Positions 432 to 60,900 of a DNA stretch of 64,000 bases are shown here, piece by piece. The notes beneath the pieces are model-generated. The model did no database searches and was not told the origin of the DNA. It saw only the letters and a list, made by a program, of their open reading frames with translations. A program made the translations under genes and the position numbers. Numbering within the stretch: position 1 is the stretch's first letter; every line of letters begins with the position of its first letter. Origin of the DNA: Nereocystis luetkeana (taxonomy: Eukaryota > Sar > Phaeophyceae > Laminariales > Laminariaceae). The stretch covers positions 9,797,848 through 9,861,847 of the forward strand of contig JARUPZ010000005.1 in NCBI GenBank assembly GCA_031213475.1, read 5' to 3'.

Positions 432-735
432 ATCTAGACAGGCAAGGCGGCTAGGCCTGTACTGGCATCAAGAAGATAGGGCTGTTCAGGCAGCTAAGTC
501 TTTACAGGCCTTGAGGCTGAGGCAGCCAGGCAGCCAGGCCTGTAAAGGCGGCTAGGCAGGCAGGCAGCTAGGCTTGTGCATGGCAGCTAGGTAGGTAGCT
601 AGGAAAGTTGTCGTTTAGGCAGCTAGATCTGTAGGTCTGTACAGGCAGTAAGGCTAGGCAGGCAGGTAGCTAGGCCTGTAAAGGCGACTAGGCCTGTAAA
701 GGCGGCTAGGCCTGCACGGCAGCTAGAAGGTACCT
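432..735. repeat. GGCAGCTAGGC-type minisatellite
   Basis: Degenerate tandem copies of a short unit built from GGCAGCTAGGC and CTGTAAAGGC fill this block. Unit length varies because AGGC and GGCAG sub-units are gained and lost. No coding signal is seen. Confidence 0.75.
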
Positions 736-1117
736 GGTAACTGGGAAGGTTAGCGCATGGGCCCCGGTGAGCCAGTCACCCCAACCCGTGTCGCGCGCCG
801 CGCCTACCATATGCTCATTCGTCCGTGATTGTCGAGTGGCGGCGCCAGACCAAGCAGAACCGCGGTGAATTTGCTCTGATTTGATGATAAATCGGGTGAA
901 CGAAATTGGAGGGAGGGAGGGAGGGATGCACGTAAGGATACCTTGCGTGGCCACTTGCTGGCTACGGTGGTGAGAGTATGGGCCGTGTTTGTTTTTGCCT
1001 TCGTGGTGTGAAGGGCTGTTTTTGTCGTTTTTTTGTTATTGCAGTAATGCGTGCTATTAACGGCGCACCTGACTTGTTGTACCTAGCATCTCTGTTTAAT
1101 TTTGGTGGTGCCTGTCT
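736..1117. other. No feature recognised
   Basis: Mixed-composition sequence with a short GGGA run near 910-925. Open frames are short, lack splice context and have no recognisable family. Confidence 0.4.
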
Positions 1118-1283: not shown

Positions 1284-1800
1284 ACTCGTTATCTCGTTAT
1301 CATGCGTGGCCGTAGTCGTATGACCTTAGACCCTCGCATCCCTGCAATGCCGCGACGGAGCACGTCGGGTTTTCACCGGCCAGTCAGATATTGCTTGCAC
1401 CAAGCGCGAAGCGCCGTGAGGTGTTGGGCGAGTCGCATAAAGGGTGAGCTGCATCCTGTCAAGGACCCGTTTGAGGCGGATTTTCTGGCGTATGTATGAC
1501 AGCGTCAATGAGTTGATTTATTTTCTGGTGTGGCCACTTCCAGAGACAGCAATGGGTTTAATATGTAACTGCCTCGTGGGTGTCTTACCGTATACCAGGT
1601 ACACACTACGTGATACGATCATCCCCCTTGTGCAGAGTGAAGGTTCTCCCCGCACAAGAATGATCTATAGCTCGACCGCCAGCCGTGGTGACCGCAAAGG
1701 AAGAAACAAAAACGGTTCCCGGTTATCTAGCTCACGCAGTGAGAGGCGTGTTTTACAGCGTCGTCGCCAGCCGACGCCAACCCAACCTATATATATATAT
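1268..1800 (-). mobile_element. Poly-C-tailed dispersed element, near full length
   Basis: Read on the minus strand, the element begins GGTTGGGTTGGCGTCGG and runs about 520 bp. It ends with a conserved GGCCACGCATGATAACGAG block followed by a C tract (G run on plus). A second long copy is at 33780-34340. About nine shorter copies in the window keep only the C-tailed end, which resembles 5' truncation. A TACCAGGTA micro-insertion sits inside it at 1593-1601. No protein is encoded. Confidence 0.65.
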
Positions 1801-5427: not shown

Positions 5428-6113
5428 AATGTCGATGTCCCGCACACAGCAGTTTGAACCGCATACTCGTACGTACCAGAGAATGAATCACATGATAATA
5501 TCTCAAAAGTTTCCGTACAGTATTACTCTGTCCCTAAATATATAGAACGCTTTGACTGAATCTTACAATCCAAACGGTCCGTATTATAGGGGCAGTGGTA
5601 CACTAGCAGTTGTCCTGTACTGCTATTATACTGTACCTGGTATAAAAGAGGAGACGACGGCGGTTGTACGTGATACCTCTCACCAGAGTTGGGCCGATCT
5701 TCGATTGTTGGACCGGAAATCGAGTCTCGATTTTCGATAACAAAAACCGGACGTTTTTAATCCGGCTATTATTATTCAGTTACTGAAAAAAGCCGAAATC
5801 CAATAACCCGCTCGGTTATGTCGTTATTTCCGGTCCTTACATATAGGCACTGAGTGGTATGACAGCATGACAGCAGCAGACAACGTTAAGTCCGACGTAT
5901 ACCTGGTACAGTCGCAGTGTGTGTCTGTCGTGGTTCATGGGAACAACGGTGTGCCAGGCCTATTATGTTGATTGAGGAACTTTGATCGCAACGTCACCGC
6001 GAGCTATACCTCCGCTCGCCACCCAGACGTAAACGACGAGATACAAGAAAAGAGGAGTCGTTTATCTTCGTTACCTTCAACATTCAACGAAACACAACAA
6101 TCAAAGCCAAATC
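5428..6113. other. AT-rich intergenic sequence
   Basis: Carries TACCTGGTA sites at 5634-5642 and 5900-5908. A block at about 5690-5845 resembles the AACCGAAAACCG repeat family seen at 53-55 kb. The last 60 bases are A/C-rich and could be a 5' leader for the putative exon at 6114. Confidence 0.4.
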
Positions 6114-10011: not shown

Positions 10012-11290
10012 TAGGTGTAGGTGTTCACATTCAAGGGTGGACGGAGGCATGAATGAACTGAAGTACTTACTGACAAAACGTGTTTATAAATATGAAAACG
10101 TATGCCGAGAAAAAACACAAATAAAAACCCGGCAGTCTACGAAAGATACTTGGGCGGGTAGAGCGTACTTGAAACGAGAAAGCGACCGGTACACGAAAGC
10201 GGAATGCCAACCAACACGGCATAGTGCGTGCCGGTCTCTCTATATAAATACCTCTATCACTATTACTTGCTATTGTCTCGGCATTATTGGGCAGTTTTAA
10301 GGCCTAAAAACTAGCATAATAGCGATTTTTGGGGGAGTTTATTGAGCATAGGCAGCACAATTGGGGGGGGGGGGACATAGCAGCACACTTTTTTGCGTCC
10401 CTTTTTCGTCAAAAAACACATACCAGGTATCTAAGAAGAAAACAGTAGCATGGATACAAACTTATCTATCTAGCGCCGTTCGTCCAGGCTCTACGACGCA
10501 AAGAGCGGGCACGGCTTCTTATGGTAGAACGTGTCTGCAAATCCTACTATCGGTTACACGTTTGCCGTGTACGCTCTGCATGCATTCATGTCTCCAGCAA
10601 GCGTTTCTTAAGGCCCTTTTAGCTGGCGAACGAAAAACAGGGGTTTTGGAGAACGGGTGTACCGGGGATGGGGAAGTCAGTCCACCTGCTCCTTCTGCGA
10701 GAGAGGCGACCGATCGTCACAACGACGACTCTTGGGTCCCGGGGGACGACAGCCCCCAGCACAAAACACGCCCCACACAGCGCTCGCTGCCGCAACGACG
10801 CTTGGCGCACACGGTTGATTTTCGGCCCAGCGCCGTGTGTCTAGGAGGTAGCCGTTCCCCAGAAGGGCCCGACGCCACCTATCCGCGCACCGCGCCCGCT
10901 AACGAAGGTGAGCGACTTTGCGCAAAGAGGATCACAAAGCCCCCCTTGTTCCCAGGTGCCCATGCTCTTATAGACAGCGCAGAACGCAGCTGTTCAGGTC
11001 ACGCCAAAATCAGAAATGAGGCGAATCGCAAATATTGCAAATTCAAGTGAGCGTGAGCAGCCCTCGCTCCCATCTTCGTAGTCTGTGCAAGCAGAACGTT
11101 GTTTTTCGCGACAGGCCCAGAAGAAACGAGTCTCCGCACGAAAAAAACGAAGTAAAACAAAAACAACGTAAAGCGACCTTCGCCCTCGTGGTCCTCTATT
11201 TTTCACGACGGGCTCCAAATCGAAAACACCGAAAATCACAAAACACACTGGCATACAAGGCTAGCGAAGCGAACAAACAAATTCAAGTGT
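10012..11290. other. Region downstream of the Nudix gene
   Basis: Holds a TACCAGGTA site at 10421-10429. A ~155-residue plus-strand frame runs from an ATG near 10580 to 11050 without recognisable domains. The 3' end of the Nudix gene may lie here on the minus strand, but I could not assign a terminal exon with confidence. Confidence 0.3.
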
Positions 11291-18679: not shown

Positions 18680-19200
18680 TGTGAGCTGTGATACCTGAGG
18701 AAGTTAGACGATACGGCCTTACTCCGCTACACCTTTTGACGTGTTTCGCACTCTCTTCGTACCGTACGGAGAAAAATCAGAATGCGCATTATATGAGCTT
18801 CGATCGGTCTACGAATGAATTGATAATTACCCTGTACCTGGTATGTGTTAATGGTGTCACTCTTGCGGTTTGGCACTTACTGCTGTCTGTGTGTGTATGC
18901 CGGCCGCGGACATTCGTTACGCGTCAAACTTAAAACCCGGGATATATACAGTAGACTCACCTTACCAAGTAAAACAACCCACTGCTGCAGCTCTCGGTAG
19001 AAACTCGCAGGGGTGGATATTTGAAACTGCTGTCGGCAACCGTGTGCGTTGGTGGGTGGTGAGCGGTACCTGTTGTTGTTGTTGTTGTTGTTGCTGTTGT
19101 CATCATATCGCCATAATCTACTGCTGTAGTCCGTGACCACTAGACAGGGCGTCATAATCTACTGCTGCTTGCTGTAGGCCGTGGTCACAAGAAAGGCCCC
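18680..19200. repeat. 507 bp tandem duplication, unit 2
   Basis: Diverged copy of unit 1, from GGCTGTGAGCTGTGATACC to about AGGCCCCAATACACTA. It contains TACCTGGTA at 18835-18843 at the position of a bare TA in unit 1. The end also carries a (TTG)n expansion near 19073-19093. Confidence 0.8.
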
Positions 19201-20250: not shown

Positions 20251-20644
20251 TCATGAGCTGTATACCTGGTAGGTGGCCAATACAGGTACGCAGAAGATAT
20301 CAATACAAACAACCATATATACTTGTACATCCCAGGTACAGCAGTGGTACCAGGTATGTGATACTATATGAGATCGGATCTCCTTTTGTTCCGAACACAC
20401 ATTAGATCGACACTCAACATAATTTGAATTGTCGTCTACAGCAGCTGTCAGCCGTTACCATCCATACCACAAGAGGCACTCGAACAGAACAGAGCACAAC
20501 ACCGACGCACCGCACAGCAACACCCTAGCATGCCCACGACCCGGGGTAGCAGCTCCAGCGGCGCTTCGGCCGTAGACCAGGCTGGCGGCGGGCAGCAACG
20601 GGATCCATCGATGGATGTGGGCCCCACCAGTTACTCACATTTTA
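20251..20644. other. Spacer between satellite blocks
   Basis: Non-repetitive sequence with three TACCAGGTA/TACCTGGTA-type sites near 20264, 20330 and 20347. No exon was recognised. Confidence 0.4.
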
Positions 20645-21010
20645 CCAGGCTGAGCTATAGGAGCTACATGAGCTAGCTCATCTTCCCCCGAGATGAGCTA
20701 TACGAGCTACATGAGCTACACATGTTTCCCTCGGCTTGAGCTATACCAGGTAGGCGGTAGCTCATCCGCACATGTTTTCAAAGCTTGAGCTATACCTGGT
20801 ACACGATAGCTCGTAAGCACATTTATGTCCAGGAGTGAGCTATAGGAGCTACATGAGCTAGCTCATCTGCCCCCGAGATGAGCTATCGGAGCTACATGAA
20901 CTACACGTGTTTCCCCCGGCTTGGGCTATAGGCGGTAGCTCATCCACACATGTTTTCGAAGCTTGAGCTACACACGATAGATGAGCTAGCTCATGAGCTG
21001 TCCGGGGTGT
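20645..21010. repeat. AGCT-rich satellite, block 2
   Basis: Same unit family as 19845-20250. Two units carry 7-bp insertions (TACCAGGTA at 20744-20752, TACCTGGTA at 20793-20801) that sister units lack. Confidence 0.85.
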
Positions 21011-21598
21011 CAATATATATCAGGCATTGCCAAGGTGCCTGTGTGGTCGTACGCTGACAACTCAAAAACACGGGGTCGGCTGCAACACGATAGCGCAGAC
21101 TGCTACGTGGAAGGGGTCTCCCCAGCACACGAGAACGCCCTGTTATCTCATCATACGAGTATCACGAGTACCAGGTACCAGGTATGTGAAGGCATATCAA
21201 TGATAGGCGTGATGCGGAGTAAAGAGGTGTGTCTATTAATAGTGCCTTGTCACCTGGAAGGGAAAGCGTCGCAGAGTCGAGTTCTACTTGTTCCGATGAT
21301 CGGCGTCTCGAATTTCCCACCGCAGAGAGGGACGAACGCAGTCGAGTGATGCACGGAGCGGTGGGCTTGACCGGCGAAAGCGGTGGCCAAGAGATGAAGT
21401 GGGGCTAAAGCGCGCAGCATGGGGATGCCCAACGAACGTTAGACCTACGCAATTGATCGGAGATCGCGGAAGGAATTGTCGAAGACGGAGTTCCAGAAAG
21501 TTCTAGTTGGCTGTACATGGCGGGTGGAAAGCTGGAAATTCGAAACATACAAGCGTAGCAGGCGATCACCGCGATCACCGCAGTACAAGCGCGCTGCG

Positions 21599-21719: not shown

Positions 21720-24700
21720 GTGAAGTTTGAATGGATTGGATTGAATTGCCTCGCGATCCACTCCGCTACTGCTGCGCTGTAAGCTGTGAGCAGTCGCGCC
21801 AACCGACCTAGATTGCTGATGTTGTAGCAAGGGCGTGTTCCCCGGCATGCACCTCGAATTTGTGCTGCGAACGCTCCACGGCCAATGTAAGACGCGCAGG
21901 TGTCCTTCCGTGGCACTGCTATTGATCGTGCTTGGTTTGGGTGCGCACGATACGAGCACTCGCCTGCTACTCATGCTCGTAGGCAGCGTCATAGGTGGCG
22001 TTTTCGGGTGTCCACGGGACTGTCGGAAATCTGTGCGTCTTGTATCTATGTACGTACTGCTGTTGAGGTGTGTACTCGTAGTGCCACGACCGCGACGAGC
22101 ACAGGCACAGCGTACAGCAGTGCCCGCTCGTGGTCGGGGCCTCATCATAGCCAGCGCTCACGTTAGTAGCGTTCCTGCTGTTATTGCTGTGCCGGCGGTC
22201 CAGTTACGAAGCCCGTGGAGGAACAAACGACAGGTACGTACGTATAGCGACAGAGCGACTTTACAGCAGCGAAAGCGACAAGTGACGTACGGTCTAACCA
22301 GCGGTCTACAAGGTACGACCAGGTGCGTGCAAGTTGTCGTTGGGTGGGTGGTTGGGTCGTTGGGTCGTTGGGCGTCGTGAAGCGCGCGTGTCGCATACAA
22401 AATAATGTACGTATTAATATGTACCACCCTGAAAGGAAATGTAAGAGAGGTTCAGGGATTATGAACACTATTACGGGGGACCATAGTAAATAGGACCTGC
22501 GATACACACAAAAAACTATATAGAACTACATACTTGGATCACAACCCCCGAGCGTGCTCGGTTGGTGCATCCCTGGTAGAGCCTGGTATCAGTATAGGGC
22601 TACCCTATATATACCCCCTACCAGGTATACGATATGATATTTCCATAGTACTTAAGTCATGTTTTTTTTCGCCGGAACATGCGAAATATATCATACCAGG
22701 TATCGTATTACATCGCTATATATAGGGGTTTTCAGCACGATATGGCTAAAACGTGATATGATATTTGGTACTCCGTATATGATATATACGCCCGGTATGA
22801 AGCGATATATCGGCCTATATAAGGTGATATAAGATGATATATCGGCCTATATGAGGTGAAATACGTGATCTAGCTATCCGATATGTGGCATAATATGTCG
22901 ACTTTTGCTGTCTTGACGATAGCTCTTGCATTTTTCGGGCGTACATTTTGGGCGGAATATACGTGCAGTTTTTTTTTTTTTTCCCATCCCATTCATTATC
23001 TTCGCACATCTTCTTCTCTCTCCTTCCAACTCGTAACTCAGATCCGGGGTCACATAGCAGGCTCTTCTACCCCCTTCCCGCTACGGTACGTGCCTTCATT
23101 TTTATCGCGAGAAGATTTCAGCCTTTTCTTCCCTCGTCGACTCGCATCGAATTGTGCCTACCCACGCTGCAAGGCGCTCTCAACAATTGAATCCTTTTGA
23201 TTTTGATTTTTGCAAATAAAGTCAAAACCCACCTGGGGCTTGAACCCAGGACTCAAACACAAGTAGAATTCGAGGTTAACCACTTGAACCACCGGGGCGA
23301 CCGGCAAGAAGTATATACCTGGTACGTAGATACGAGTACGACTACGAAGCGTGACACACACAAGGGAACGCACCAGGGGTTTGTGCCCGCTGCTGTCTTC
23401 CTGTCGTGCGGTTTTGATCCGCGATGAGCGAGTCGAACGCGCCATCGCCTGCGGCCACAAGCGAGCCACAGCTACAGCACGCAGTTACCTTCGACATCGA
23501 TATATATATATACCAGGTATATATATATATGTGCCTACCTTGTACTTGGTACAAATACTACCGGCAGAGAGTGTACACAATGTTGTGGTCATCGCAATAC
23601 ACAAACTAACTGTTGTCTGCATTACACCACACATCTACAAGGCTTATAACCTCGCGGAGAAGGGTTGTCATATCATAATTCATGCATTTTGTGTATCGGG
23701 TCGTACGTACCGGGCACAATTCGCCAAGTACCGAGCAAGTGCTCTGCCATCAGTGTGGCACATGTCAGACCCCAATCATGAGCAAGTACCGATGTGAAAC
23801 GGCGGTGACGCACATATATAGGCGGCAACAGCTCAAGAAAGCACGACATATAGGGCAGATATGAAGTGATATATCACTATACAAGGTATATGATGTAAAA
23901 CATTATTTGCATATGATGTATCACAATATATATGTGATATGTCACACGATATCTGACATGATATCTCATATACCCTGCATATATCACGTCTCATAGCGAT
24001 ATATCGAAAAATACCCGTGATATGGACATGACTACCTGGTATGAAATATCAACTTTTATGACTTAGTCATGTTTTTTGGGGGGGTATATATATATATATC
24101 ATATAACCCCCCGAGTTATAGGTGATACCAGGCTCTAATCCCTGGCCTCTCAGAGCTCCCACTTCCAAACCGCCTCCTTTCATTGCTTGCCGGACCTTTC
24201 CAGCAGTTCTTTGTTTTCTCGGTCCTTTCTTCCTTTTTTCTTCTTTCGTTCCGTGTGCGTGCGTGTTCTCCGAGCACGGCATCGCGGGAGAACCCGGCAC
24301 CGTCGCGGGTGTCAGCGGGTGCTGGCGTAGAGGGGGGGTTGCAAGGAGCGCGGTCGCCGCTTTCGTGCCTAGGCGTCGCGTGTGCCTCGAGACACGAGGG
24401 ATGCATGAACGGGCTTTGTCTGGCTTCGATTTATGATTGTTGATAGAGTATGTACGAGATATGAAGGTCGTTCGGGAGGGCAAGATAATATTCAAGCGGG
24501 GCTTATTTTTGCGACCACGCTAAAGTTGAAAGAGGGAGGTGTGCAGTTTGAACACCAACGTTATCGAGCTGGCGAACGATGGCCACGGTGAGCACCGGGC
24601 TTCACGCGGGGCGGGCGACGGGGCTGATTGTGGCAGAGAGTGATAAAAGCTTTACCCGGACCGAATCGGTAGCGAGGTGGTCGCGAGAGGGGCGGGCGGC

Positions 24701-27700
24701 GTACGAGGCTGAGAGAGAAGCTCTTCTGTGCGATTTTTCTTTTCTTTTTTTCGACCGGGTGTAAGGTGTTCCAATCAGGCAGAAAAATATTACACGAGAG
24801 GGGACGGGGATTTTTTGTTCCTTTCCGAGTTTTGGGTTTCATTTTCATTGTTTTTGCTGCTGTGCCGTGATGTGCTTTCGCTTTCTTCGTATATTCAGTA
24901 CAGACATAGAGCATATCGAAAGAAGACGATAAGTACAGACAGTAGTACCCTACCTGGAGTATGTACGTACGTACGACATCCGCGACGCGAAGCGTATATG
25001 TGGCATCCAAGCTGACGTCGGAGCTGTTTTTTCCTGAAGCATGGCGGCGGGACTCTTGGCATTATCAAGTCGCCGGTTTGCAATTACGATCCTTGAAAAA
25101 CTAAACTCAATCGTGGACCTCTCTTCGCTTCGCATAATTTGATGTACTTTTTTCCTTCCTGAGCGAGTGTAGCGGGCGGCGTAGGCCGCCCGCGGAGCGA
25201 AGCGCCTTGTATTTACATATTTTCACTAACAATATTTGGTCCTATTTACTATGGCCTCCCGTAATACGAGGCACAGCAGTAGTAAACGCTTGGTTTTTTT
25301 CCGTCCCGAGCGGTGTGTTACATCTCCACGTATTATCGTACCAGGTACGTTGCAACTTTGGACACACGCCCTACCTACAAGCAGCCGCCAGGTTATGTGG
25401 CTAATTATTTACGAGTAGTCGACCTTTTTGTTGTTGTCGTCGACATTTGCCCCCCTCTGATGTCTCACTTCTTAAAAGACACTAAGCTTATAACTTCCGC
25501 CACTTCGAAAGTGGTGCCCCATCCCACTACCAGGTATCGCATAAACGTGGGGTGCAGTTGGAAAGGCACCTGTAGACCCCGGGGCGCTATGCGTACGAGT
25601 ACGAGTCCTTCTTTCGATATCTCGGCGCCAGGACCACCAAACGTCCCCGTGCGTTCTGCGGGAGTCGGATGCCCCGCCCCCGCCGATACGGCAGGGGTGC
25701 GCTCTCTAGTGCATACGGTTAGACTACTGCTGTGCCGTATTTTGAGAAAAAGGCTAGAGGCGAAATACGATGTATGTGCGTATGTATATCGCCCGGGTCT
25801 GACACGGTGTGATGACGATCGACACGCTAGAAGCAGGCCCGGAGGGTTGCATCTAGCTATGCGCAACACTGCTGCTCGCCTCTTTGTCTACCCAGGCACA
25901 CAGCAGCGCGCTGTTGCTATCACTGATGTGGGGAAATTCGCCTGTGGGCACTGGGTGATTGTTGACTCTGATTCTACCACCGCAGTAGACCTACAGGGTA
26001 CGGTACAGCGGTACACGAACAGGATAAGCAGCAGTCGAAAATGAAACCGCTCGCGATTTGTATCATGCTCTTCCTCGGGGGGCGGGGGGGCGTCATTTTC
26101 ACCCCTGCCCCCCCGTTCCCTCCTTCCCCCCGTGCCCCCCTTCCCCCTCCTCACTGCCCCTTCGATGCCAGCTAAAACCCACTTTCGCCCAACCTCCACC
26201 TCCCACCCCCCGTCCCTTGCCTGTCCTTTGCGTCGACATCATGGAAACCCCTACGGCTGGCGGCAAGCGCAGACAGGAAACCTGTTCAAGGGGGTTAAAA
26301 TGATCCCACCAGGCTTGCACTTCGTCCACTGTGGCACGGGCGAGGGCGAAAAGCAGGTTGGTGGCGGTTTCACCCTCCCTCTGGGAAATATTCTACCCGC
26401 CGGACATATCACGATCTAGATCATCTACAGATAGATCGTCGTCTAGATCCTAGCCTGCCGTTATGAGGCGTTATGCAGGAGCTGTACAGTACAGATCCAA
26501 CCAGAAAAGCACTGTTTTACTGTAGATCATGCGGGTTACACAGCTCCCACCGGGCAGCATGGGCATCTGCCCCTGAATAAGCAGCTTTTTACTTTAGTAT
26601 TCGACCAAAACGGTCCTTTTGAATAGGAACAAGAGTGACACTATTCGTGCAAATCAGGAATATACCAGGCATATGAAAGATCTACTACTGTATGTAGATC
26701 GTGAAGCAGAGGTATCAGTACCACTTTCTGTCGAAAACTATTTCTGCCTGACCGAGCTCCTTAACCCAACATTTTTGGGGTACCGAGAACGTTCTTCGCT
26801 ACGCTTTTCGTGACATGTATGCGCTTACAGTAGGCTTTGGTATCGCCCTCTAGGTCGCACCATTGCTGCTGTATTACGGGGGACCATAGTTAATAGGACC
26901 GAATATTGTTAGTATAAATGGTTAAATGTATAGTTTTTTATGTATACCGTAGGTCCTATTAACTATGGTCCCCCGTAATAGTGTTTATTTTTCAAAATCT
27001 GTGTTCGGAGTGAGGTACGGAGCTTCCTTAAGGTCAAGCGAGGACCCCAAGAAAAGTCTGTGTGCTACCTGTACCATGGCAGGACTCCTAGCGCCTCCCA
27101 AGGCCGGGGGTAGGGTTCACACGTTCGCCTCACGCAGCAGACGAGATCATCGATTTCCACGTCGAGATCATCGATTTCCACGTCGAGATCATCGATTTCC
27201 ACGTCGAGATCATCGATTTCCACGTCTGGACGACGTGCCGTGCTCGTAGATACCTCAGAGCAGGCATATCCCCCGAACGTTATCATCCATAATATATGGG
27301 AAAGCACGTGGGGGTTCCGCATACTCTTGCGTGGTCCATGGGACATGGTTTTTGGGTTGCGTGTTGTCGTGATGTGGCCTGCGTTTGGCGTGAGACGGCA
27401 ACGGCAAACCACGCGTTGTTTTGCTTGTGCCAACGAGGCGCGCGGTGTTTTCCTGCCTGGTCTGACTCGCCCGTTGACGAAGGACGGGCTATTTTCTTGT
27501 CGGCTATGTAGTGGCGAAGGCCTGTGAAGTGGTGGCCGCAAGATGCAGAAGAAGAAAAAAATAATGTGAAAAAAAAAAAAAATCGGGAAAGGTTGCGGGG
27601 TGGGAACACGGCTCTGTTCAGTAGAAAAAAGAAGCGGCTAAGGTGCGAATAGCCTCGAGCAACACCGAACTCACTTTTTGAAGACGTCGTACCAGGTAGT

Positions 27701-30700: not shown

Positions 30701-33661
30701 AATCAGTCTAATTCTAGGTAGTTTGTCCCCCAAAACGGGACCGCGGTTCTAAAAGGGTTAATACGTACGTAAAACACTCCCGGAAGTTTAGGTACTGAAG
30801 GACCAAATAGTATTATTAATACCCTGGTAGTTGAGAAGCACAGTTTCACTAACCGTCCCGAGTGGTGCTTCGTATATGACGGCCTCTGCCGTACGAGGGA
30901 CTCATAAGCGTCGGCGACATGCGAGTCCGTTGTGCAACACATTGTGGTACGAGAGTCGCTGCGCCATTGTGCGGCCGACGCTCTATTAACGTTGCGGGGG
31001 GGCATAGTAAATAGGACCGGATAGTTCTAGTGAGAATCGGTAAATATATATATAGGCTTTTGTGTACTGTAGGTCCTATTTACTATGCCCCCCCCCCCGT
31101 AATAATACGGGGGGCCACAGTAAATGGGACCGAATATTATTCGTGAAAATGGGTAAATATGTACCTGGTAGGTTTTTTGTGTGTACCGTAGGTAATATTT
31201 AGGACAAGATATTGTTCGTGAAAGTAGGGAAATACATAGATTTTCGTGTGTACCGTAGGTCCTACCTATTTACTATGGCCCCGCGTGATACCGTAGGTCC
31301 TATTTACTTATGGCCCCTCGTGATGGTCGTCTTTTTGAAGTTCCCGTCGCTTTTGTCTCCGCCTCTGAGTTGGGCGTGGTCGCGACTCCCGCAGCGCCGA
31401 GTTGCCGGGCGCGTTGCGGAGGCTCTCGTGGCTGCCCTTTCGCTCTTGCGTCCCTCTTTTTCGCCTCTGAAATCCCGAAGGGTTTGGAGAGCGGGCGGTG
31501 CTGTGTGTGTGTGTGTGTGTGTTCTTTCGACTTATTTAGTCTCTCCTTGCTCTCTTAAAGTCCCAAAAGGAAACAAGGAGAACAGAACGCCAATATCTAG
31601 ATCGTCTAGAATATCTAGCTCCTATGTTCGTTGCCCCCAGGAGACATGGCGCTAGGAAATAGAGCTGCAAACATACACGTCCCACCCCGGCCAAACACGT
31701 GCATACAGGTCCCAGCCGGCGGAATAATGACTGTGTTTCGGGGGGGGGGGCGTACTGTAGTAATCAGGACCCCCATCATGTACATAAAAAAACTTGTATA
31801 TTCCTGTATTTTTAGTGAGCATATTTTGGTCCTGATTGCTAGGCTCCCCCGTAGTTGTGCGAGTGGGGATTATCGTGTATAGCGCTATGCGTGTATCTGG
31901 GAATGTACTCTGATCTGATTTTGTTTCATGTGATATGATTTCATAGCATGTAAGATGATATGCTATGAGATGAGATGGTGTGAGATGATGTGATAAGGTG
32001 TGTCATGGTCTGGTATGATATAATATCGTATCACATGGGATGCTATGATATGAGATGATATGATATGATGTGTTTGGTAAGATATGATATGATGCTTTAT
32101 TATACCATGTGTTGTGGCATGATATGGTGTGGTAGCATATGATGTGATACGATATTATATGATATAATCTGGTATGGTCTGGTCTGGTCTGGTCTGTTCG
32201 TGTCTGATATTATCTTATCTTACGATCTGATCTGGTCTGATCTGGTCTGTTCTTGTTGGGCTTGTAGTCCGTTGGGCCACTGGTAAAAGCTTACCCAATC
32301 GCCTACCCAATCTAGGCCTTATAACAGTCTGGTCTGGTCTGGTCGGGTCTGGTCGGGTCTGATCTGGTTTTATCTTGTCCTATCTTATATTATCTTATCT
32401 TATCTTAAGATATGGTATGGTATGGTGCGGTATGGTAGGTTATGAGATGATACGGTACCATCTGATCTGATCTAGTCTGGTCTGGTCTGGTCTTACCGGA
32501 TCTGATCTGATCTGATCTGATTTTGTGTTCTCTTTTCGGGTCTTATCTTAGTTCATCTTATCTTGTCTTATCTCAAACCAGGCACGAAGTATTATCTGCT
32601 CTAATCTGATCTAGACGACAATACACCTATACCAATGTTTAATTTAATACAAGGGGAGAAGGAGTTGACGCTGTCGGCATGCATGCGTTGGCGTCGGGCC
32701 CTATAACCTGGCGGTGATACGAGCGATAACTCAAACTTGCGTCTGCTTTCGTTTTGCCCCATTTTTTTGTTTCTCGTTTTTTTTCTTCTATGCCTGTCCA
32801 TCTCTTTCAGGCGGAACTCCTGGGCGAGCTGCAGCTTTCCTTCGTTCTCTTCGTGTCCCTGTCTTCGCTGAGGGGGTTTCGACATTGGCAGGCGTTGTCG
32901 GCTTTGCTCTGCCGATGCGGGGACGCTCTGGCAACCAACCCCGCCTTGTTCACCGCCTTCATTCGAGTGAGCCGGAGGGGAGGGGGGGGTGGGGTAATTG
33001 TCTACCACTCTCTGGCCGGAAACATAACGCCCGTTTTCATTCCAAAGGTTAACATCGAACGCGTACTGTAAAGCGGGCCAGGGTGATACACATCTTGCAA
33101 CTACCCGGAACCATGGCTACCGACGGGACGGTTCTACCGACGGAACGATTATTTCGGGTTGCGGATTCGTGTGCGTTGTTTATAGAACATGGGGGGGGGG
33201 GTTCGGCTTCGTGGCCGGACTTGTCGGCCTTATTCGCGGAGATATCGGCCCCATCCGGGCGTGTGTCGACTTCATTCGGAGATTTACTGACCTCACTCGG
33301 AGATCTATATGGGCTTCTTTCGAGGATTTTTTGTCGACCTTGTTCGGGAATTTGTCGGCTCCATTCAGGGTGTTTTCGGCTACATTCGGGGATTTGGCTG
33401 GTCTCATTCGGGAATGCATCGGCTTCGTTCGGAAATGCATCGGCCTCATTCAGGGATTTATCGGCTTCGTTTTTCATGGAGAGTCATCGGCTATGTGCTT
33501 TGTTGAAAATGAGGTTTTGTTTTCGGGCGAAGGTTGCGTCCCCCCCCCATGGTCCATCTCCCCCACCGCTGCACTACCCAGCTCCACCTCAAGCGGTTAC
33601 ACTGCCACGCACGCTACCATGGTTGGGTCGGCCCCGTAGCTCTTGTGTGTGTGTGTGGGGG

Positions 33662-33694
<33 letters not shown>

Positions 33695-35726
33695 ACGGTA
33701 TGCTGTAGGGGGGCGGGTCAGTCAAGGTGTCAAACCGCGGTCTCCTAACCCCCCCCCCCCGCTCTTAATTATTATACGTATACACAATAGGTTGGGTTGG
33801 CGTCGGTTGGCAACGACAACTGTAAAACGTGCCGCTCACTAGGTGAGCTAGACAAACAGGGCACCGTTTTTTTTGTTTGTCTCCTTTTTTTCTGGCGGTC
33901 GGTCGGTCGGTCGGTCGGTCGGTCGGTCACAGCTGGCGATCGAGTCACTGTAGATCAATTGTACGGGGTGGAGAACCTTTACTACGCACTAGGGAATTGA
34001 TCGCATCACGTATACAGCGCTCATGGCAACGCGCCCACGAAGCAGTTACATAGTGCACTCCCATTGCTTGAATTCTCGATAGGGGCCACACCGAAAAAAC
34101 AAAATCATTGAAGCTGTCGTGCGTATGCAAGTCCGCCTCACAAGCGGTTCTTAGCACGATGCAGCTCACCCATCATGCCATTCGCCGAACACCTCACGGC
34201 GCTTGGCGCTTGGCGCAGGCAATGTCTTGCCTGGTCGGTGAAAACACGACGTGCTCCGTCCCGGCATTGTAGGGATGCGAAGGGCTAAGGTCATACGACT
34301 ACGGCCATGCATGATATCGAGCACCCCCCCCCCACACACACACACACCCGTACCTTACCGCCAACGCCTCTCTCCCTAACAACACCCCTCAACGTAACTC
34401 AACCCTAACCCCGTGTGTGATCTTGGCAGATTCTGCACGCGCACCTGAAGCTGGTACCTGAAGATTTTTTCGACGTGGAGCTGTCTAAAGACAACTTCCT
34501 CGTGCCCTGCCTGTCCGCCCTTGTACAGGTATGGTTATTGCCTCCCTCCCTCCCTCCCTCCCTTCGTTCCCTCCCTTCGTTCCCTCTTTGTAACCCCACT
34601 ATTGCGGGGGACCATAGTTAATAGGACCAAATATTGTTAGTAAAAATGGTGAAGTATATACCCTGGTAGGTTTTTATGTATACCATAGGTCCTATTAACT
34701 ATGGTCCCCCGTAATAGGACCGAACTCCCGGTTCGGGGAAAAGTTATTCGAAATGTGATCCAATTTTTTTCCCCCCCAGCAGTGCAGTTCTCGAAGGGTT
34801 CAGGAACGCAAGTAAGCAGTCGACATGGCCGCTGTACGTGTAGAAGAACAATGATATAGTCGCATTTTTTTTTGCCGTTCGTTTTTTGTTGTTGTGGTCC
34901 TCCTCGCAAGCGGCTCTGGCTGACTCTCCGGCCTCTCTCCCCCCCCTCCATCCCTCCCTCCCTCCCTCTCCTCCATCCCTCCCTCCATCCCTCCCTCCCT
35001 CTCCTCCTCGTGCACATGCTATTTTTCTTTGACTCTCCGGTCCCCCAAAACACAACAAAACCGTGGGTGCAATGTATCGGTGCCGCGCCGCAAAAACCTC
35101 CTCGCGCTTTTCTTTTTCACTCTTTCTTGCTTTTCCTTTCTCTCTCTTTTTTCTTATTCTTTCTTTCTTTATTTTTCTTTGCTTTCTTTCTTTTCCTGCT
35201 TTCTTTTTTTATTTCTCTTTTTTTTTATTTTTTTGTTATTCTTTTCTGTCGACAATACATTTTGTCATTTTTCAGAACGTCCTGCCCGACAAGTCCCTGG
35301 ACCCCGCCCTCACCGACGCCGGCAAGAGGCTCCTGAAGTTTCTGCGCCAGAGGTTCGGGCTGTTCGCGGAAGTCGGGGGGGGGCATCCATCTCCGCCACC
35401 TCCTCCACAGCAGCAGCAGCTCCAGCACCAGCACCAGCACCAGCACCAGCAGGATAAGACTTTGCATCGAGCCACCCTGCGCGAAATCGGTAGCGACCTG
35501 CGCGGCGGGGAGGAAGTGGGCGGGCTTGGGGCAGGCCGGAGGAGGCGGGCGGCTTCGGGGCAGCGAGAGCGCCGGTGCCGGGTCGACCACGGGCGCGAGT
35601 GGGGGAGCCGGTGGGAGGGGGGGCGGAGTCGGGGGGGGTGGGGCAGGAGGAGGAGGAGGAGGATGGGCTGAGCCTGATGCAGCTGGAGCTGAGCGAGGAG
35701 GATTTGCCTGCGGTGGTTCCGTACGA
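21599..35726 (+). CDS. AAR2: AAR2 family pre-mRNA splicing factor
   Basis: AAR2 is a U5 snRNP assembly factor. In yeast it binds Prp8 and holds it in a form that excludes Brr2. Eight plus-strand exons join in phase: 21599-21719, 26277-26356, 28391-28545, 29189-29435, 29825-29974, 32811-32966, 34430-34528 and 35276 onward. Family hallmarks run in order: GVPPGVEFGID near residue 25, FKGVKMIPPGLHFVH, GPYPLEQRAPWLNLTN, LLGELQLSFVLF with a histidine/tryptophan helix (FRHWQALSALLCR), then VPEDFFDVELSKDNFL and NVLPDKSLDPAL. Introns are 389 to 4557 nt and hold MITEs, satellites and SINEs. The C-terminus is unclear. After NVLPDK the frame enters Gln/His-rich sequence and would stop at 35669, but the acidic tail (DGLSLMQLELSEEDLPAVV) lies in another frame, implying a small intron or an indel. 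The 3' boundary is approximate. Confidence 0.93.
22471..22530. mobile_element. MITE family A, left half only
   Basis: TTACGGGGGACCATAGTAAA left terminus is present. The right terminus is missing. It lies in AAR2 intron 1. Confidence 0.75.
22600..22880. repeat. GATATATC-rich block 1
   Basis: AT-rich sequence with repeated GATATATCGGCCTATAT units and two TACCAGGTA sites. Confidence 0.7.
22969..23308 (-). mobile_element. tRNA-derived SINE, full length
   Basis: On the minus strand, a tRNA-like head at 23308-23228 has an A-box-like TGGTTCAAGTGGTTAA and a B-box GGGTTCAAGCC, plus D-arm and T-arm stems. A ~240 bp body follows and ends in a poly-A tail (T run at 22969-22982). The acceptor stem does not pair, so this is not a functional tRNA. 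A 5'-truncated relative is at 58817-59034. Confidence 0.8.
23840..24060. repeat. GATATATC-rich block 2
   Basis: Same AT-rich motif family as 22600-22880: TGATATATCAC and related units, in AAR2 intron 1. Confidence 0.65.
24061..25205. other. AAR2 intron 1 sequence, no feature recognised
   Basis: Unassigned sequence with overlapping open frames on both strands at 24067-24495 and 24561-25010. None is splice-bounded or recognisable. Confidence 0.35.
25206..25266. mobile_element. MITE family A, right half only
   Basis: The AT-rich centre and right terminus (GGTCCTATTTACTATGG, then CCGTAATA) are present. The left half is absent. Confidence 0.75.
25313..26044 (+). other. 243-codon open frame in AAR2 intron 1
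   Basis: Long uninterrupted plus-strand frame. Its complement also has a 134-codon protein-like minus frame at 25465-25869. Neither shows a domain I recognise. It may be a transposon remnant. The direction of coding, if any, is undecided. Confidence 0.2.
26277..26356 (+). CDS. AAR2: AAR2 exon 2
   Basis: Acceptor GACAG. It encodes NLFKGVKMIPPGLHFVHCG, the most conserved AAR2 segment. Donor GTTGGT after EKQ, phase 0. Confidence 0.93.
26405..26530. repeat. Dispersed repeat (CCTGCCGTTATGAGG type)
   Basis: GATC-rich run followed by TGCAGGAGCTGTACAGTACA. A related copy is at 49985-50140. Confidence 0.65.
26874..26978. mobile_element. MITE family A, copy in inverse orientation
   Basis: 105 bp, TTACGGGGGACCATAGTTAA to CCCCCGTAA, flanked by TA, in AAR2 intron 2. 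The internal AT-rich core is inverted relative to copies 1-3. Confidence 0.9.
27142..27227. repeat. Perfect 21-bp repeat, four units
   Basis: Four identical head-to-tail copies of CGAGATCATCGATTTCCACG plus T. Too few and too contiguous for CRISPR, since there are no spacers. In AAR2 intron 2. Confidence 0.92.
27908..28028. mobile_element. MITE family B (TTAA), degenerate copy
   Basis: TTAACCCTCTTTTAGGGCCG at the left and a diverged ...TAAAAGGGTT at the right, with CCCGTAGCGGGGACA inside. In AAR2 intron 2. Confidence 0.6.
28391..28545 (+). CDS. AAR2: AAR2 exon 3
   Basis: Acceptor GATGCAG, then GLFFRAAAGSVAVAQWDPEA through LRLEMDTSL. It matches the family's GFF...V..W strand region. Donor GTGAAT in phase 2, weak polypyrimidine tract. 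Confidence 0.88.
28852..29012. repeat. (GGTTC/GGTCC)n pentanucleotide array
   Basis: Repeated CGGTTCGGTCCGGT units in AAR2 intron 3. Confidence 0.85.
29189..29435 (+). CDS. AAR2: AAR2 exon 4
   Basis: Joins exon 3 to create LGPYPLEQRAPWLNLTNCM, matching the family GPYP...W..LTN block. A Gly-rich low-complexity loop follows before EIVPHFPHVGRVAQF. Donor GTAAGG. Confidence 0.92.
29825..29974 (+). CDS. AAR2: AAR2 exon 5
   Basis: 50 codons between an ACAG acceptor and a GTGAGT donor. It contains LTKINMDGSEALRALI, matching the linker between the two AAR2 domains. Confidence 0.85.
30066..30192 (-). mobile_element. Poly-C-tailed element, truncated copy
   Basis: G run, then GGCCGTAGTCGTATGACCTC and the GGGTTTTCACCGATCAGG block. 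In AAR2 intron 5. Confidence 0.7.
30471..30686. repeat. 73-bp tandem triplication including a MITE end
   Basis: Three near-identical 73-bp units (ATCACCTACTCCTGTTGTGA start, period 73 at 30471, 30544, 30617). Each unit carries the TTAACCCTTTTAGAACCGCA left terminus of MITE family B. Only the third continues into a complete element. Confidence 0.92.
30662..30761. mobile_element. MITE family B, complete copy
   Basis: 100 bp palindromic element between TTAA tetranucleotides. TTAACCCTTTTAGAACCGCA is mirrored by CGGTTCTAAAAGGGTTAA. TTAA flanks are typical of piggyBac-type elements. Confidence 0.88.
30992..31102. mobile_element. MITE family A copy
   Basis: TTGCGGGGGGGCATAGTAAA to CCCCCGTAA with an expanded C run. 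It directly abuts the next copy. Confidence 0.85.
31104..31325. mobile_element. Rearranged MITE family A cluster
   Basis: Two or more partial copies joined: a left end at 31105, internal GAATATTATTCGTGAAA repeated near 31210, and right ends near 31270 and 31315. It contains TACCTGGTA at 31162-31170, where the neighbouring copy has plain TA. Confidence 0.75.
31737..31857. mobile_element. MITE family A-related subfamily
   Basis: Diverged relative: a G run with CAGGACC near the left and TTTTGGTCCTGATTGCTAGG, then CTCCCCCGTAGT, at the right. Confidence 0.65.
31890..32600. repeat. TGATATGATA / TCTGGTCTGG pentanucleotide satellite
   Basis: About 700 bp of pentamer-based repeats (GATAT, GGTCT, GATCT variants), broken by a ~75 bp unique spacer at about 32255-32330. 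In AAR2 intron 5. Confidence 0.85.
32811..32966 (+). CDS. AAR2: AAR2 exon 6
   Basis: Strong TTTCAG acceptor after a T-rich tract. It encodes 52 residues starting AELLGELQLSFVLFVSLSSL and including the helical FRHWQALSALLCRCGDAL. Donor GTGAGC. Confidence 0.94.
33220..33480. repeat. 21-bp minisatellite (TTCGGGGATTTGTCGGCTTC)
   Basis: Degenerate tandem units of about 15-21 bp. They give spurious repeated peptides such as NEADAFP on minus and FGNASAS on plus. In AAR2 intron 6. Confidence 0.82.
33780..34340 (+). mobile_element. Poly-C-tailed element, near full length
   Basis: Begins AGGTTGGGTTGGCGTCGG and continues through GGATGCAGCTCACC-like and TCACGGCGCTTGGCGC blocks. It ends GGCCATGCATGATATCGAGC plus a C tract. 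It is co-linear over its length with the 1268-1800 copy in reverse. In AAR2 intron 6. Confidence 0.75.
34430..34528 (+). CDS. AAR2: AAR2 exon 7
   Basis: 33 codons, ILHAHLKLVPEDFFDVELSK to PCLSALVQ, matching the human segment around PADFF and DNFL. Acceptor TTGGCAG, donor GTATGG. Confidence 0.94.
34602..34714. mobile_element. MITE family A, copy with micro-insertion
   Basis: TTGCGGGGGACCATAGTTAA to CCCCCGTAA, in the intron between AAR2 exons 7 and 8. It is ~8 bp longer than standard because of TACCCTGGTA at 34659-34668. Confidence 0.9.
35276..35726 (+). CDS. AAR2: AAR2 terminal exon(s), frame change unresolved
   Basis: Begins after TTTTTCAG with NVLPDKSLDPALTDAGKRLL, then a Gln/His run from (CAGCAC)n. 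The start frame is open to 35669-35671. The acidic C-terminal motif (ELSEEDLPAVVPYEE, ending about 35726) lies in a different frame. The switch must occur between 35493 and 35668, by a micro-intron or an indel. A poly-C element starts about 95 bp downstream. Confidence 0.75.
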
Positions 35727-54998: not shown

Positions 54999-55536
54999 GC
55001 TGTTACATACTTGCGCGCCACTGGCCACGTACGTACAGCAGTGTTGCTGTTTGGAGTGGTCCTGTATCTGTGCTCTCAATGCCGCCGGTACCCGGCATGA
55101 ACCAGCACCCTTTTCTGAAGGGCTGCCGGTATCTACTACCAGGTATTAATATTAATAATTGTTGTTAAAGCGACGAAAAAAACAAAAGACAACCAGCCGT
55201 CTCAAATGCAGCCCGCATGGTCTACTCATAGGTCTATAAATACCGCACACACAGTGGAAGCGGAGGGGAAAGGCTTGCAAAGCGTGACGCTGCGAGCTGT
55301 ACAGCAGCAGCAACAAGCTGGTCAGGTCAGCGGCGTCGCGATGAGAAAAATACTGCCGTACAACGATACCTGGTATCAACCAATAAAATCACCCAAATCA
55401 GTAACATCAACCAAAGAATGAGAAACGCGATCAAACCAAACCAACCATGGGAGCACAAAAATGACGCGGCGGGGCAAACCGACGCATAACCCCGGGCACG
55501 ATATGTACCGGCCACAGGTATCAGGCAATAACCTGG

Positions 55537-56598: not shown

Positions 56599-57742
56599 GT
56601 GCGATCTGATTTTGGTTTTTCGAAGGTTTTGGCGGGTTGGCAAACGAGACGCAACTCAAAATGCCTTGAATCCGAAAGGCTGCCGTGTGTGGCTAGTCTG
56701 CGGTGCCTGTACCTACGGGGTAGCCTGTTGGGGGCGGGTGCTGCCTGTGGGGCGCTACCCTGCCGCGGCAACTATTGCTGCCCATTCCGTGTCCATCTGA
56801 TTCGTCGATAAAGATATCGTGGGACGACGACGATATAAGTTCTGACCTGCAGTGATGGCAGTACGTACCACGTAAAATATTCGTTTTCAAATCGACAGCA
56901 GACAGCAGTCCCCAGTACACGCGTATCGTAAGAAGGGCATTGGCACAAGGAGCAGTCGGCGGTACTGCTGTACTGCTGTACTGCTGTACCTGATGGGTGC
57001 ACTAAAGCCACTACGGCAGTACAATATTAGTTATAGTGCTGCGGTTGAAGACTTTATTTAGACCATCCTATAATACATACCAGGTACCTGGTACCTGGTC
57101 AGGTACTTGGTACCACGCTCATAGAATGTGTGTGTCGTGCCTGTCGTGTCCAGTACGATGAATTTGTACCAGGTACCAGGTATTGCATTTGTCTACTCTG
57201 CTTACTGCATACCAGGTAGTGATGGAGTTTCTCTGAGTCGCAGTATTAGTATTGTGGCCACAGAGCTTGTTGCATTATACCAGTACCAGGTACTCGTATC
57301 TCTCTACAGTCTAGGATTGAAGAATCGGCACGGGCATTGGTTTTGCTGCATGTCGAAGTGGTTTGTACCGGTAGAAAATAGCGGGTACACACACCCCACT
57401 CCGTCCGAAAATCGGCATGTCCGGAAATGTAAGGACTATTTCGGTATTCATATTCATAGCGGAACGGTCCTTACGTATGCAGACAGAGTGATGCCAGGCC
57501 CATGTGTCCCTGCACCGACCTTGTCAGCAGTGCCATGCGCGGCCCCAATGTAGGCGGCAGGCATGTTGTGTTGCTGCTGCTGTTGGTCCTGCTGCTGATA
57601 TGGTGCTGATGTCGTGATGCTGCGTCTTGACATCTCCTTGATGTTTGTGGAGAGCAGCTAAAAGCAGTAGCTACTACTGTACTCGTGAGTCTAGCATCCT
57701 GGTGAAGCCAGGTAGGTATACACGTATATACAGAGTACAGCC

Positions 57743-57985: not shown

Positions 57986-60900
57986 CGGGGGGGGACATTA
58001 AATAGGACCTAAGGTATAAACAAAAACCTACATATTTCGCGATTTTTAGTAACAATATTTGGTCCTATTTACTATGGTCTATGGTCCCCCGTAATAGTAG
58101 TAGTGGTAGTAGTAGTAGTGGCAGTAGTAGTAGTAGTAGCAGTAGTAGCAGTAGCAGTAGTAGTAGCAGCAGTAGCAGTAGCAGTGGCAGTGGCAGTAGC
58201 AGTAGCAGCGCAGAAGCAGCGGTAGCAATAGCAACAGCAGCCAGCAGCAGCAGCAGCAGCGGTTAGCAGTAGCACCAACAGCGGGCGGGCGCGTATTACG
58301 TGCCGCGTGCTCCCGCTCCTACACCATGCACAAACAACGAACGAAGTAAACTTTGCGACAAGCGACCAACCAAGCGCGCGCACTTCCAAATACGTCGAGA
58401 CCAAACATGTCAAGTCGACGGCACGCCTGCCCCTTGGCGGACAGCCGTCGAGCACGCTAAATCTAGTACATTACAGCTAGAGAGGCCTTGACGGACGAAA
58501 CTTAGTTCAATAGACCGTCGCCGACCGGCCTCTCGCATACGTTCTTCGTGTTGTGCTGGTTCTTGCTCCTTTTTGTGCTATTGTTCCTGTTGAAGGTGCG
58601 TGCGGCTCGAGAGCTGGAGGACTTGAGGCAGGAGAAGGAGAGCCTGGTGCTGATGAAGCAGCAGCTAGCGGCGGTGCACCAGCTTCGTATCGACCTGCAG
58701 AGGAAGGACTCTGTAATACAGGTGACCAAGATACCCCAGCCTCAGCTAGCTCATGTACTGCTATACCCTGGAATGCAATAGGGCAACCTCAATGGCTGCA
58801 AGGTAGATAGGATGAGAGCGCCTTGCAGCGTGGGTAGGCACAATTCGATGCGAGTCGACGAGGGAAGAAAAGGCTGGAATCTTCTGGCGATAAAAATGAA
58901 GGCACGTACCGTAGCGGGAAGGGGGTAGAAGAGCCTGCTATGTGACCCCGGATCTGAGTTACGAGTTGGAAGGAGAGAGAGAAGAAGATGTGCGAAGATA
59001 ATAAATGGGATGAGCAAAAAAAAAAAAAAAAAAAGATAGGATGAGAAATATTGCTAATGCCAGGATAGTTGTTACCAAATACCATGGTAGAAACGATTTC
59101 TTGTTTAAGCCCTGTTCACTGCTACTGGTATGTACTTTTTTTCAAAATCTCCCAATTTCCAAAGTTATCGCCAAGGGCTGCAGGTGAAAATATTAAACCT
59201 CTACCAGGTAAGACCTGTGCCAATGGAAACGCAAAGTTCCCATAAAAAGTTTGAATTCCAAGGATACCCGTCAGAACTTTTCAGTTACAGCTTGCTATGG
59301 GCACGTTTCCCAAAACGGAAAGTTCCAAACGTTTGAAAAAGCCCGTAAGAAGCAAATTTGGGGCCGGTGTTGGACCAAGATCGGCTTGAGAACAACTCAG
59401 ACGGCTGTATGATTCGAAGCGGCGAGATTCCGAGTCCTCGACAACATCGACCGACGAAACCAACGACTGCGTCGTGAATTCTGAACGGAGTGAGGGGCTC
59501 CGACCCACTCTAGGGTCACCATGTTCACACAATGGCCAGTGTCATGTGGCGGGAGCTGGCCAGGCGTATGAGAAAAGAACAACGGACCGCCGGTGTCCAC
59601 AAAACAGAAGACAAAATTTCTCCATCCGTCTCCAATGGCAAAAAATATTTTTTTTTTCAAGGTTTGGGAGGATACCGTAGGACGCCGCCGGCAAGCCCTC
59701 GCCCCGTGGACCATGAAGCCACCTGATATCTTCGAGGCCGTCATCTATACTCGTTGGCCTTGCCGGACACCGAGCGGGTTGGTCGTGGGCTGAGTCTATA
59801 CAAACGTCGAGCGTCGAACGTCGCACGAGCTGATTTTTATTAGCGTGTTGACAATTTGCAACGGAAGAAAACAAATTGCGCCTCCTGCAGCCGTTAGAAA
59901 AAAAAAAAAAAACACAAAGCATTTTTTCTTTTTCATCCCATAGCGGCAGCACGAGGATATTTTTCGGCTGTTCTTTGAAATCAGGATTTTTGAAAGAAAA
60001 CGTTTTGGCTTCGCGTTTCCATTGGCGTAGGTCTAAGATCGGGCACACAACTGTCAGAAAAATTAGAAATTAGGAAATATTTGAAAATTCGGAAAAAAAA
60101 ATTGGAGGGTAAATGCCACAGCAGTTTGAATAGCAGTGCGCACGGCTCTGTTTGCGGTCGGACGATCAGGATAGCAATCGCAAGGCTGTTTGGGGAGCAT
60201 GGACAAGTGGTACCTGGTACTTACATAATACTGATGATGAGAGTGTCAACGAGGACAAGGACCGGAGTGTAAGTAATGCCAGTTTTTATGGGATGCCAAT
60301 GATAAGAGAGCTAAATAACAGAGTGGGCATGATCAACACCCGGTATAGGTGCCCTAGGATAAGCGGAGTACAGCACGATAATAGGAGGGACTTCCGTGCG
60401 CTGTTTTTCGTTTTCGTTTTCGTTTGTGTGGACGAATTTTAGCCCCCGACCCCGCTCCCCTCCCCCTGGCCTTCTTTGTGCCTCGTATGCTTTTCTATGT
60501 GGCCTCTGTGATACACCTGGCACACTGCGATTTTTTCGTACCAAAACGTGGGCAGTCTTTGCAGTTGAAGGTGCTGGAAGGACAGGCCGCGAAGGACAGG
60601 GAGGGCCGCCTGGAGGCGCACTGCCACCTCCTAGAGAAGAAGTGCTCCTACCTCGTGAGTTGCTTGTCGCGCGTTCCTTGTCTCTCCCATGCCCTTCTCA
60701 GTGTGTTTCTCTCTCCTCCCCCCCCTCCCCCCCCCCCCAAGTCGGCCTCGCAAACGGTTCTTAGTAGGATGCAGCTCACCCTTCATACGATTCGCCGGAC
60801 TCCTCACGGCGCTTCGCGCTTGCTGCAAGCAATGTCTGCTTGGTCGGTGAAAACCCGACATGCCCCGTCCCGGCATTGTAGGCATGCAAGGGTCTATGGT

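Follow-up and report, generated by a model that had tools for sequence, protein, structure and literature searches.

Abundance of the palindrome TACCWGGTA in the genome of Nereocystis luetkeana and its probable origin as a transposon excision scar

The nine-base palindrome TACCWGGTA is present in 182,395 copies in the genome of Nereocystis luetkeana (465 Mb in 1,987 contigs), against 1,744 copies of the reversed pattern, and most of these copies are probably scars left by the insertion-excision cycle of a cut-and-paste transposon that is specific for TA and whose ends begin with CCWG(G). The genome-wide count is far from expectation, as the original prediction of an over-represented palindrome required, and 182,395 insertions of 7 bp amount to approximately 1.3 Mb of the genome. 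A reading frame of the window has an Ectocarpus protein among its 17 protein matches, most of which are unnamed, at 86% over 25% of the query, in line with a brown-algal source. In viral contigs, nine stretches with the tandem form were found to contain at most three copies of the 9-mer each, which is not above a rough chance estimate.

The window (the whole 64-kb stretch of contig JARUPZ010000005.1 that was analysed) contains 31 exact copies. In one hundred dinucleotide shuffles the count averaged 0.22 and never exceeded 2, and a second-order Markov model gave an expectation of 0.48, which makes the excess 64-fold; the original prediction had come close with about 30 copies, an expectation of about 0.5 and an excess of about 60-fold. 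The runner-up among 9-mers of the window with palindromic arms and a free centre reaches 8 copies. Tandem copies with a 7-bp period, absent from the original prediction, are also present. A copy-free region that had been placed at 34.7-52 kb does lack the exact 9-mer and is even wider (31,171-55,136), but contains the variant TACCCTGGTA at 34659; this 24-kb stretch without exact scars (31171-55136) overlaps a stretch with many low-complexity reading frames. The scars and variants of the window are as follows.

731..739, strand., scar TACCTGGTA
1593..1601, strand., scar TACCAGGTA in a dispersed repeat, the paralogues of which are shorter here, with other small gaps adjoining
5634..5642, strand., scar TACCTGGTA
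5900..5908, strand., scar TACCTGGTA
10421..10429, strand., scar TACCAGGTA
18835..18843, strand., scar TACCTGGTA in one unit of a tandem pair, with plain TA in the other (18327 region)
20263..20271, strand., scar TACCTGGTA
20348..20356, strand., scar TACCAGGTA
20744..20752, strand., scar TACCAGGTA in the AGCT satellite, with TA in other units
20793..20801, strand., scar TACCTGGTA in the AGCT satellite, with TA in other units
21169..21184, strand., tandem scar TACCAGGTACCAGGTA, two overlapping copies
22619..22627, strand., scar TACCAGGTA
22694..22702, strand., scar TACCAGGTA
23316..23324, strand., scar TACCTGGTA
23511..23519, strand., scar TACCAGGTA within a (TA)n run
24033..24041, strand., scar TACCTGGTA
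25339..25347, strand., scar TACCAGGTA
25528..25536, strand., scar TACCAGGTA
27690..27698, strand., scar TACCAGGTA
30820..30829, strand., 6-nt core variant TACCCTGGTA
31162..31170, strand., scar TACCTGGTA in a MITE copy, with plain TA at the same place in other copies
34659..34668, strand., 6-nt core variant TACCCTGGTA, occupying the MITE site that is also filled at 31162, with plain TA in the L028 copy (8477)
55137..55145, strand., scar TACCAGGTA
55367..55375, strand., scar TACCTGGTA
57078..57093, strand., tandem scar TACCAGGTACCTGGTA of mixed W, followed by another TACCTGG
57167..57182, strand., tandem scar TACCAGGTACCAGGTA
57210..57218, strand., scar TACCAGGTA
57284..57292, strand., scar TACCAGGTA
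59202..59210, strand., scar TACCAGGTA
60211..60219, strand., scar TACCTGGTA

A sample of 276,036 bases was assembled from the window, twenty 10-kb stretches of contigs C1 to C5, and four 3-kb loci (L001, L002, L003 and L007) that were fetched for containing TACCWGGTA; L004, L005, L006 and L008 were excluded because they overlap other loci. The motif occurs 96 times in this sample: 31 times in the window, 61 times in the position-chosen 200 kb, and four times in the motif-selected loci. Among TA-N5-TA strings of the sample, the CCAGG/CCTGG core is found at 96 sites against 2.4 expected, with the runner-up core at 19, and the middle base is predominantly A or T (96 CCWGG versus 7 CCSGG sites); a quasi-palindromic insert with one ambiguous middle base is characteristic of an IS630-Tc1-mariner excision footprint. 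Variants of the 9-mer with one base changed outside the centre, of which there are 24 kinds, add up to 103, or about four of each. A W-centred palindrome with such strong over-representation might instead be a functional or uptake-like sequence under selection, such as a binding or methylation site, but this is very unlikely: the inserted 7 bp are present in some paralogues and absent from others, copies are found in satellites and MITEs as well as in a (TA)n run, and a flank signature (described below) is partly kept in one-mismatch forms.

Alignment of paralogous repeats placed plain TA opposite the 9-mer, as had been foreseen, and the filled form is the rarer of the two. For each scar located at least 45 bases from an end, an empty-site string (flank, TA, flank) and a filled string were built and compared with similar places in the sample, and comparisons with a best score below 25 were dropped before counting. 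In 34 of the 141 comparisons scored, TA exactly replaces the 9-mer with no gap nearby, so that TA is duplicated around the inserted bases as in IS630-Tc1-mariner footprints. The remaining comparisons are three empties without TA, two filled (probably self matches that passed the filter), one filled with changes, and 101 unreadable at base resolution, which among the matches listed are mostly diverged MITE copies with nearby gaps. Nine scars account for the 34 exact empties: L018:7419 (10 rows), L003:1501 (six), L021:3808 (four), window 20793 (four), L009:5266 (three), window 20744 (three), L014:6350 (two), L002:1501 (one) and L026:7306 (one). In the L018 array, a single filled unit stands against 11 others that read plain TA. 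One MITE site has nine copies that match an exact empty pattern and three that are filled (two with CCWGG, one with CCCTGG). Because the filled form is rare among paralogues, the 9-mer is an insertion and not the ancestral state; for a dozen scars at most, these comparisons demonstrate a 7-bp insertion (CCWGG and a second TA) at TA.

The pairs on which the original prediction had relied behave similarly. On re-reading of the letters, 20744/20929 and 20793/19979 differ by exactly 7 bp at TA; 18835/18327 also differs by 7 bp at TA, with a few substitutions adjoining, and was unreadable in the automatic comparison due to a nearby gap. The change in the MITE at 31162 is likewise 7 bp, but is accompanied by one extra T in the following T run, so that the aligner drew 8; a nearby gap made this pair, too, unreadable in the automatic comparison. 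One MITE copy in L026 possesses two scars (7306 and 7320), the TAs of which are 7 bp apart in the empty copy (7320 by reading). Two other sites are not plain 7-bp insertions, because the MITE family has TACC(A/G)TA at the scar position of L026:7520, and the net difference between L014:6350 and most MITE copies is 5 bp rather than 7, although two copies score as exact empties. The presence of some copies within repeats, and of a CCAGGG variant eight times at one MITE site (perhaps a subfamily), could indicate that the 9-mer was spread inside larger repeats such as satellites or MITE subfamilies and not by insertions of its own; this is extremely improbable, given that sampled flanks are diverse beyond a short signature and that most of the repeat copies compared are without the 9-mer.

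The repeats that host scars include a MITE family of about 109 bp (for example, window 26872-26980) with TA-flanked ends TTACGGGGGACC/GGTCCCCCGTAA and more than 20 copies in the 276-kb sample, in which several scars and TAGGWCCTA sites are found. TAGGWCCTA was rejected as a scar class in its own right: its 17 sites in the sample have strongly fixed flanks and are located in this MITE family. An AGCT-rich satellite (window 19850-21000), with the units GAGCTA and AGCTAGCT, forms two blocks and has scars both within and alongside it.

The insertions are not distributed uniformly among TA sites. In the flanks of 84 non-tandem scars, with the two sides pooled, the position immediately preceding the first TA holds A at a frequency of 0.46, G at 0.33 and T at 0.05, and positions -8, -7 and -6 favour T (0.40), T (0.46) and A (0.46), respectively. 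Statistically, preferred TAs are flanked by R...Y and are A/T-rich 6-8 bp away on both sides, a palindromic target preference of the kind associated with IS630-Tc1-mariner footprints. Such centring on TA would be expected of a dimeric transposase that is specific for TA. The signature separates held-out scars from other TAs with an AUC of 0.80 in five-fold cross-validation; the AUC is 0.71 for 53 sites with cores one base off CCWGG, as expected if part of these are decayed scars, and 0.48-0.55 for cores two to five bases off. Pairs of scars 51-100 bp apart number 9, versus 2.4 under a target-preference null (2.8 under a stricter null), and pairs 1,601-3,200 bp apart number 61 versus 43, with p 0.016 under the looser null only and p 0.15 under the stricter one. 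The other distance bins show no excess over the target-preference null, and local hopping was set aside. TACWGTA, the form of scar left by Sleeping Beauty, is 3-fold enriched in the sample (105 versus 35) but lacks the flank signature, and therefore was not counted as a second scar class.

Existing scars attract new insertions, in most of which the central A or T is drawn independently, as the statistics of tandem scars demonstrate. Genome-wide, 15,917 tandem scars were counted, against 2 for the control. A target model trained without tandem sites, with the TA count of the genome extrapolated from the sample, weights the two TAs of a scar 6.4-fold over an average TA and predicts 8,763 tandem pairs, versus 1,371 for uniform targets; the number observed exceeds the model 1.8-fold. 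By middle base, 4,800 pairs are A-A and 4,739 are T-T (9,539 with the same W), and 6,378 are mixed, comprising 4,522 A-T (by subtraction from 15,917) and 1,856 T-A, a 2.4-fold difference. In the model, the half of a scar with A three bases from TA weighs 3.32 and that with T 1.77, for a predicted A-T:T-A ratio of about 1.9:1; the direction of this prediction was not blind, as 14 A-T and 5 T-A had been seen among the first 59 pairs before the weights were obtained, and the genome count came later. Pairs with the same W make up 59.9% of the total, versus 50% if the middle bases were independent, and together with the 1.8-fold excess this indicates that about one fifth of tandem scars may arise otherwise, for example by slippage. 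Most tandem scars look like separate events.

Tandem arrays with a 7-bp period, the moderate over-representation of arrays with the same W, and the failure to see an element in the places searched would also be accounted for if the 7-bp unit TACCWGG were added directly by a templated or enzyme-specific reaction, whether telomerase-like or by a polymerase at breaks. Such an addition is an unlikely source of the motif, since the target preference is symmetric about TA, 40% of tandem pairs are mixed A/T, unlike the product of one template, and the order within mixed pairs obeys the target model.

If the scars are instead products of excision, a TA-specific DDE/D transposase of the IS630-Tc1-mariner type would insert, with duplication of TA, an element whose inverted ends start with 5'-CCAG(G) or 5'-CCTG(G). 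Nicks placed 4 or 5 nt inside these ends upon excision would leave behind 3' overhangs able to pair with each other at all but the middle base. A 4-nt CCAG overhang would pair through CAG, a single base then being filled in on either side, and for both lengths end joining would seal the overhangs and the mismatch would be settled to A or T, resulting in CCWGG. We infer both the identity of the transposase and the length of the overhang. The original prediction of a mariner-like excision is well supported indirectly as to class, by empty TAs, polarity, symmetric targets and re-insertion, but not in its detail of 3-nt overhangs, since CCA has no self-complementary register that gives CCWGG; 4-nt overhangs (CCAG/CCTG, of which the inner three pair) or 5-nt overhangs (CCAGG/CCTGG, with one central mismatch) do yield it. 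Minor products in the sample fit imperfect joining: TACCCTGGTA/TACCAGGGTA at 9 sites versus 0.7 expected, and TACCATGGTA with six strand counts (three sites, as it is its own complement) versus 0.5 expected. The CCAGGG form occurs eight times genome-wide at one MITE flank class (by matched letters, two of them read), and these copies possibly represent a subfamily that carries the variant.

Footprints of similar design are known from other transposons. Excision of Minos, Tc1 and Mos1 leaves a TA duplication and terminal nucleotides of the element in the scar, with overhangs of 2-4 nt; the scar described here shares the TA duplication and terminal element bases with these examples, the overhangs and footprints of which are shorter than its 5-nt core. 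The footprint of Sleeping Beauty and Frog Prince is reported as C(A/T)GTA (PMC3878927), and Sleeping Beauty is reported to nick three nucleotides inside its ends (PMC7827188); its CAG overhangs, by pairing, fit each other except in the middle. As described in those sources, the two systems resemble the present one in their TA target duplication and in a middle base settled to A or T; in contrast, the scar here is one base pair longer on each side (CCWGG, 5 nt), the nick would be 4-5 nt inside, and there are 182,395 scars of an element that is unseen. The footprints reported for Tc1/mariner elements are of 2-4 bp (PMC7913693), so the 5-nt core differs from the 2-4 nt of the known IS630-Tc1-mariner members covered by that source. 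In the brown alga Ectocarpus, 17 Mariner-Tc1 families (including TcMar-1, TcMar-2 and MITEs) with almost 12,000 copies are reported (PMC12477816), which makes it another brown alga with resident families of this kind, but the main text of that report contains neither the word footprint nor the word excision. As a whole word in three spellings, TACCWGGTA is absent from the literature searched (most subscription papers and all preprints being outside), and no description of a comparable mass of scars was recognised in the literature searched on footprints, brown-algal transposons and kelp genomes. Three features set this scar apart from known footprints: a core longer than those reported, an extreme copy number, and an element that was not seen.

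The original prediction had reported that the element itself was not to be seen in the window, and the 276-kb sample, which includes the window, likewise yielded none with TACCWGG ends. Pairs of TACCWGG...CCWGGTA 25-8,000 bp apart number 572 in the sample, and the best inner similarity among them belongs to a tandem scar array; the best non-array pair matches at 12/18 positions inside, compared to a control maximum of 10/18 among 489, scar pairs sharing TA by construction. Among 106 non-scar TACCWGG sites of the sample, no pair was alike inside yet different outside: five pairs continue alike, and all five share their outer flanks and therefore sit inside repeats. Among 322 TACCWG sites of the sample, 19 pairs continue alike, of which nine differ outside; as element ends these nine were rejected, two being from a GATCTG-rich tandem repeat (L009/L010), one a local duplication in L009, and the other six, which match at only 13/18 positions, being taken for chance. 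TACCWGGTG appeared enriched, but has no common continuation. A genome-wide search restricted to a single exact class of flanks at the MITE hot site returned ten matches and no element: eight are the CCAGGG variant, the ninth is a MITE copy carrying CCTGGAA, and the tenth is located outside the MITE, the latter two not being element ends by eye. A 29-bp inverted form (TACCTGG...CCAGGTA) with scar-like ends and 15 bp between them, TACCTGGCATAAATAATATAAACCAGGTA, is present at L007:2208-2236 and could be an end-to-end remnant of the element.

A search for the DDE/D transposase that had been proposed gave at least 28 DDE_1 matches in the genome, none of them tied to CCWG ends, and no CCWG-ended element was found where examined. 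Twelve DDE_1 loci (about 3.5 kb each) contain no convincing TACCWG-ended inverted repeats (12/24 at best), and 8 kb around one DDE_1 locus contain no TA-flanked inverted repeat at the threshold used. Pfam DDE_3 had no match among 30 candidates scored; Transposase_1 had none either, but that search detected no control and is uninformative.

A single family of 4,000 copies would be expected to place 4.7 ends in the sample. Because none was found, one well-conserved family probably has fewer than about 4,000 resident copies, or at least 45 scars per copy, a bound that would miss old elements whose ends have diverged, or numerous small families. Cut-and-paste transposition relocates elements and does not copy them, so a small or vanished population could leave very many scars. 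A nearly uniform scar without any resident element in view would also result if TA-bounded elements were removed by a developmental programme, so that the sequenced tissue is without them. To our knowledge, no such programmed elimination is known in brown algae. TA-bounded programmed excision is known in Paramecium (PMC3464196), but for N. luetkeana this origin is exceedingly improbable, as nested tandems and one-mismatch scars with the signature suggest that many scars are old and inherited.

In its fullest form, the preferred reading as an excision footprint is more tentative: the kelp may possibly have harboured a TA-specific transposon with an unusually long stagger of 4-5 nt, which relocated about 180,000 times and then dwindled or vanished, its own scars being preferred targets. 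If this is true, few short sequence features of the genome are as common as these scars, and the transposon is known by its scars alone. Excision footprints are usually studied singly. As many as 182,395 like scars would give a census of transposition that is independent of resident copies, in which target preference, target re-use, the outcome of mismatches and age could all be followed over a great many events. They would show that cut-and-paste transposition can leave far more scars than elements, and that repeat annotation misses most of transposon history. Each 7-bp event is a frameshift if located in a coding exon.

Several DDE_1 loci have features of their own. A TA-flanked stretch of 2,188 bp at one such locus, L043:235-2422, has exact 11-bp inverted ends, CAGTACCGGCC, and L040 and L044 are its close relatives over much of this length, at approximately 87-92% identity in the longer pieces. 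The DDE_1 loci L033:1659-2053 and L035:1503-1897, both from contig C1, share 99.7% identity across 395 bp, which suggests recent movement or duplication.
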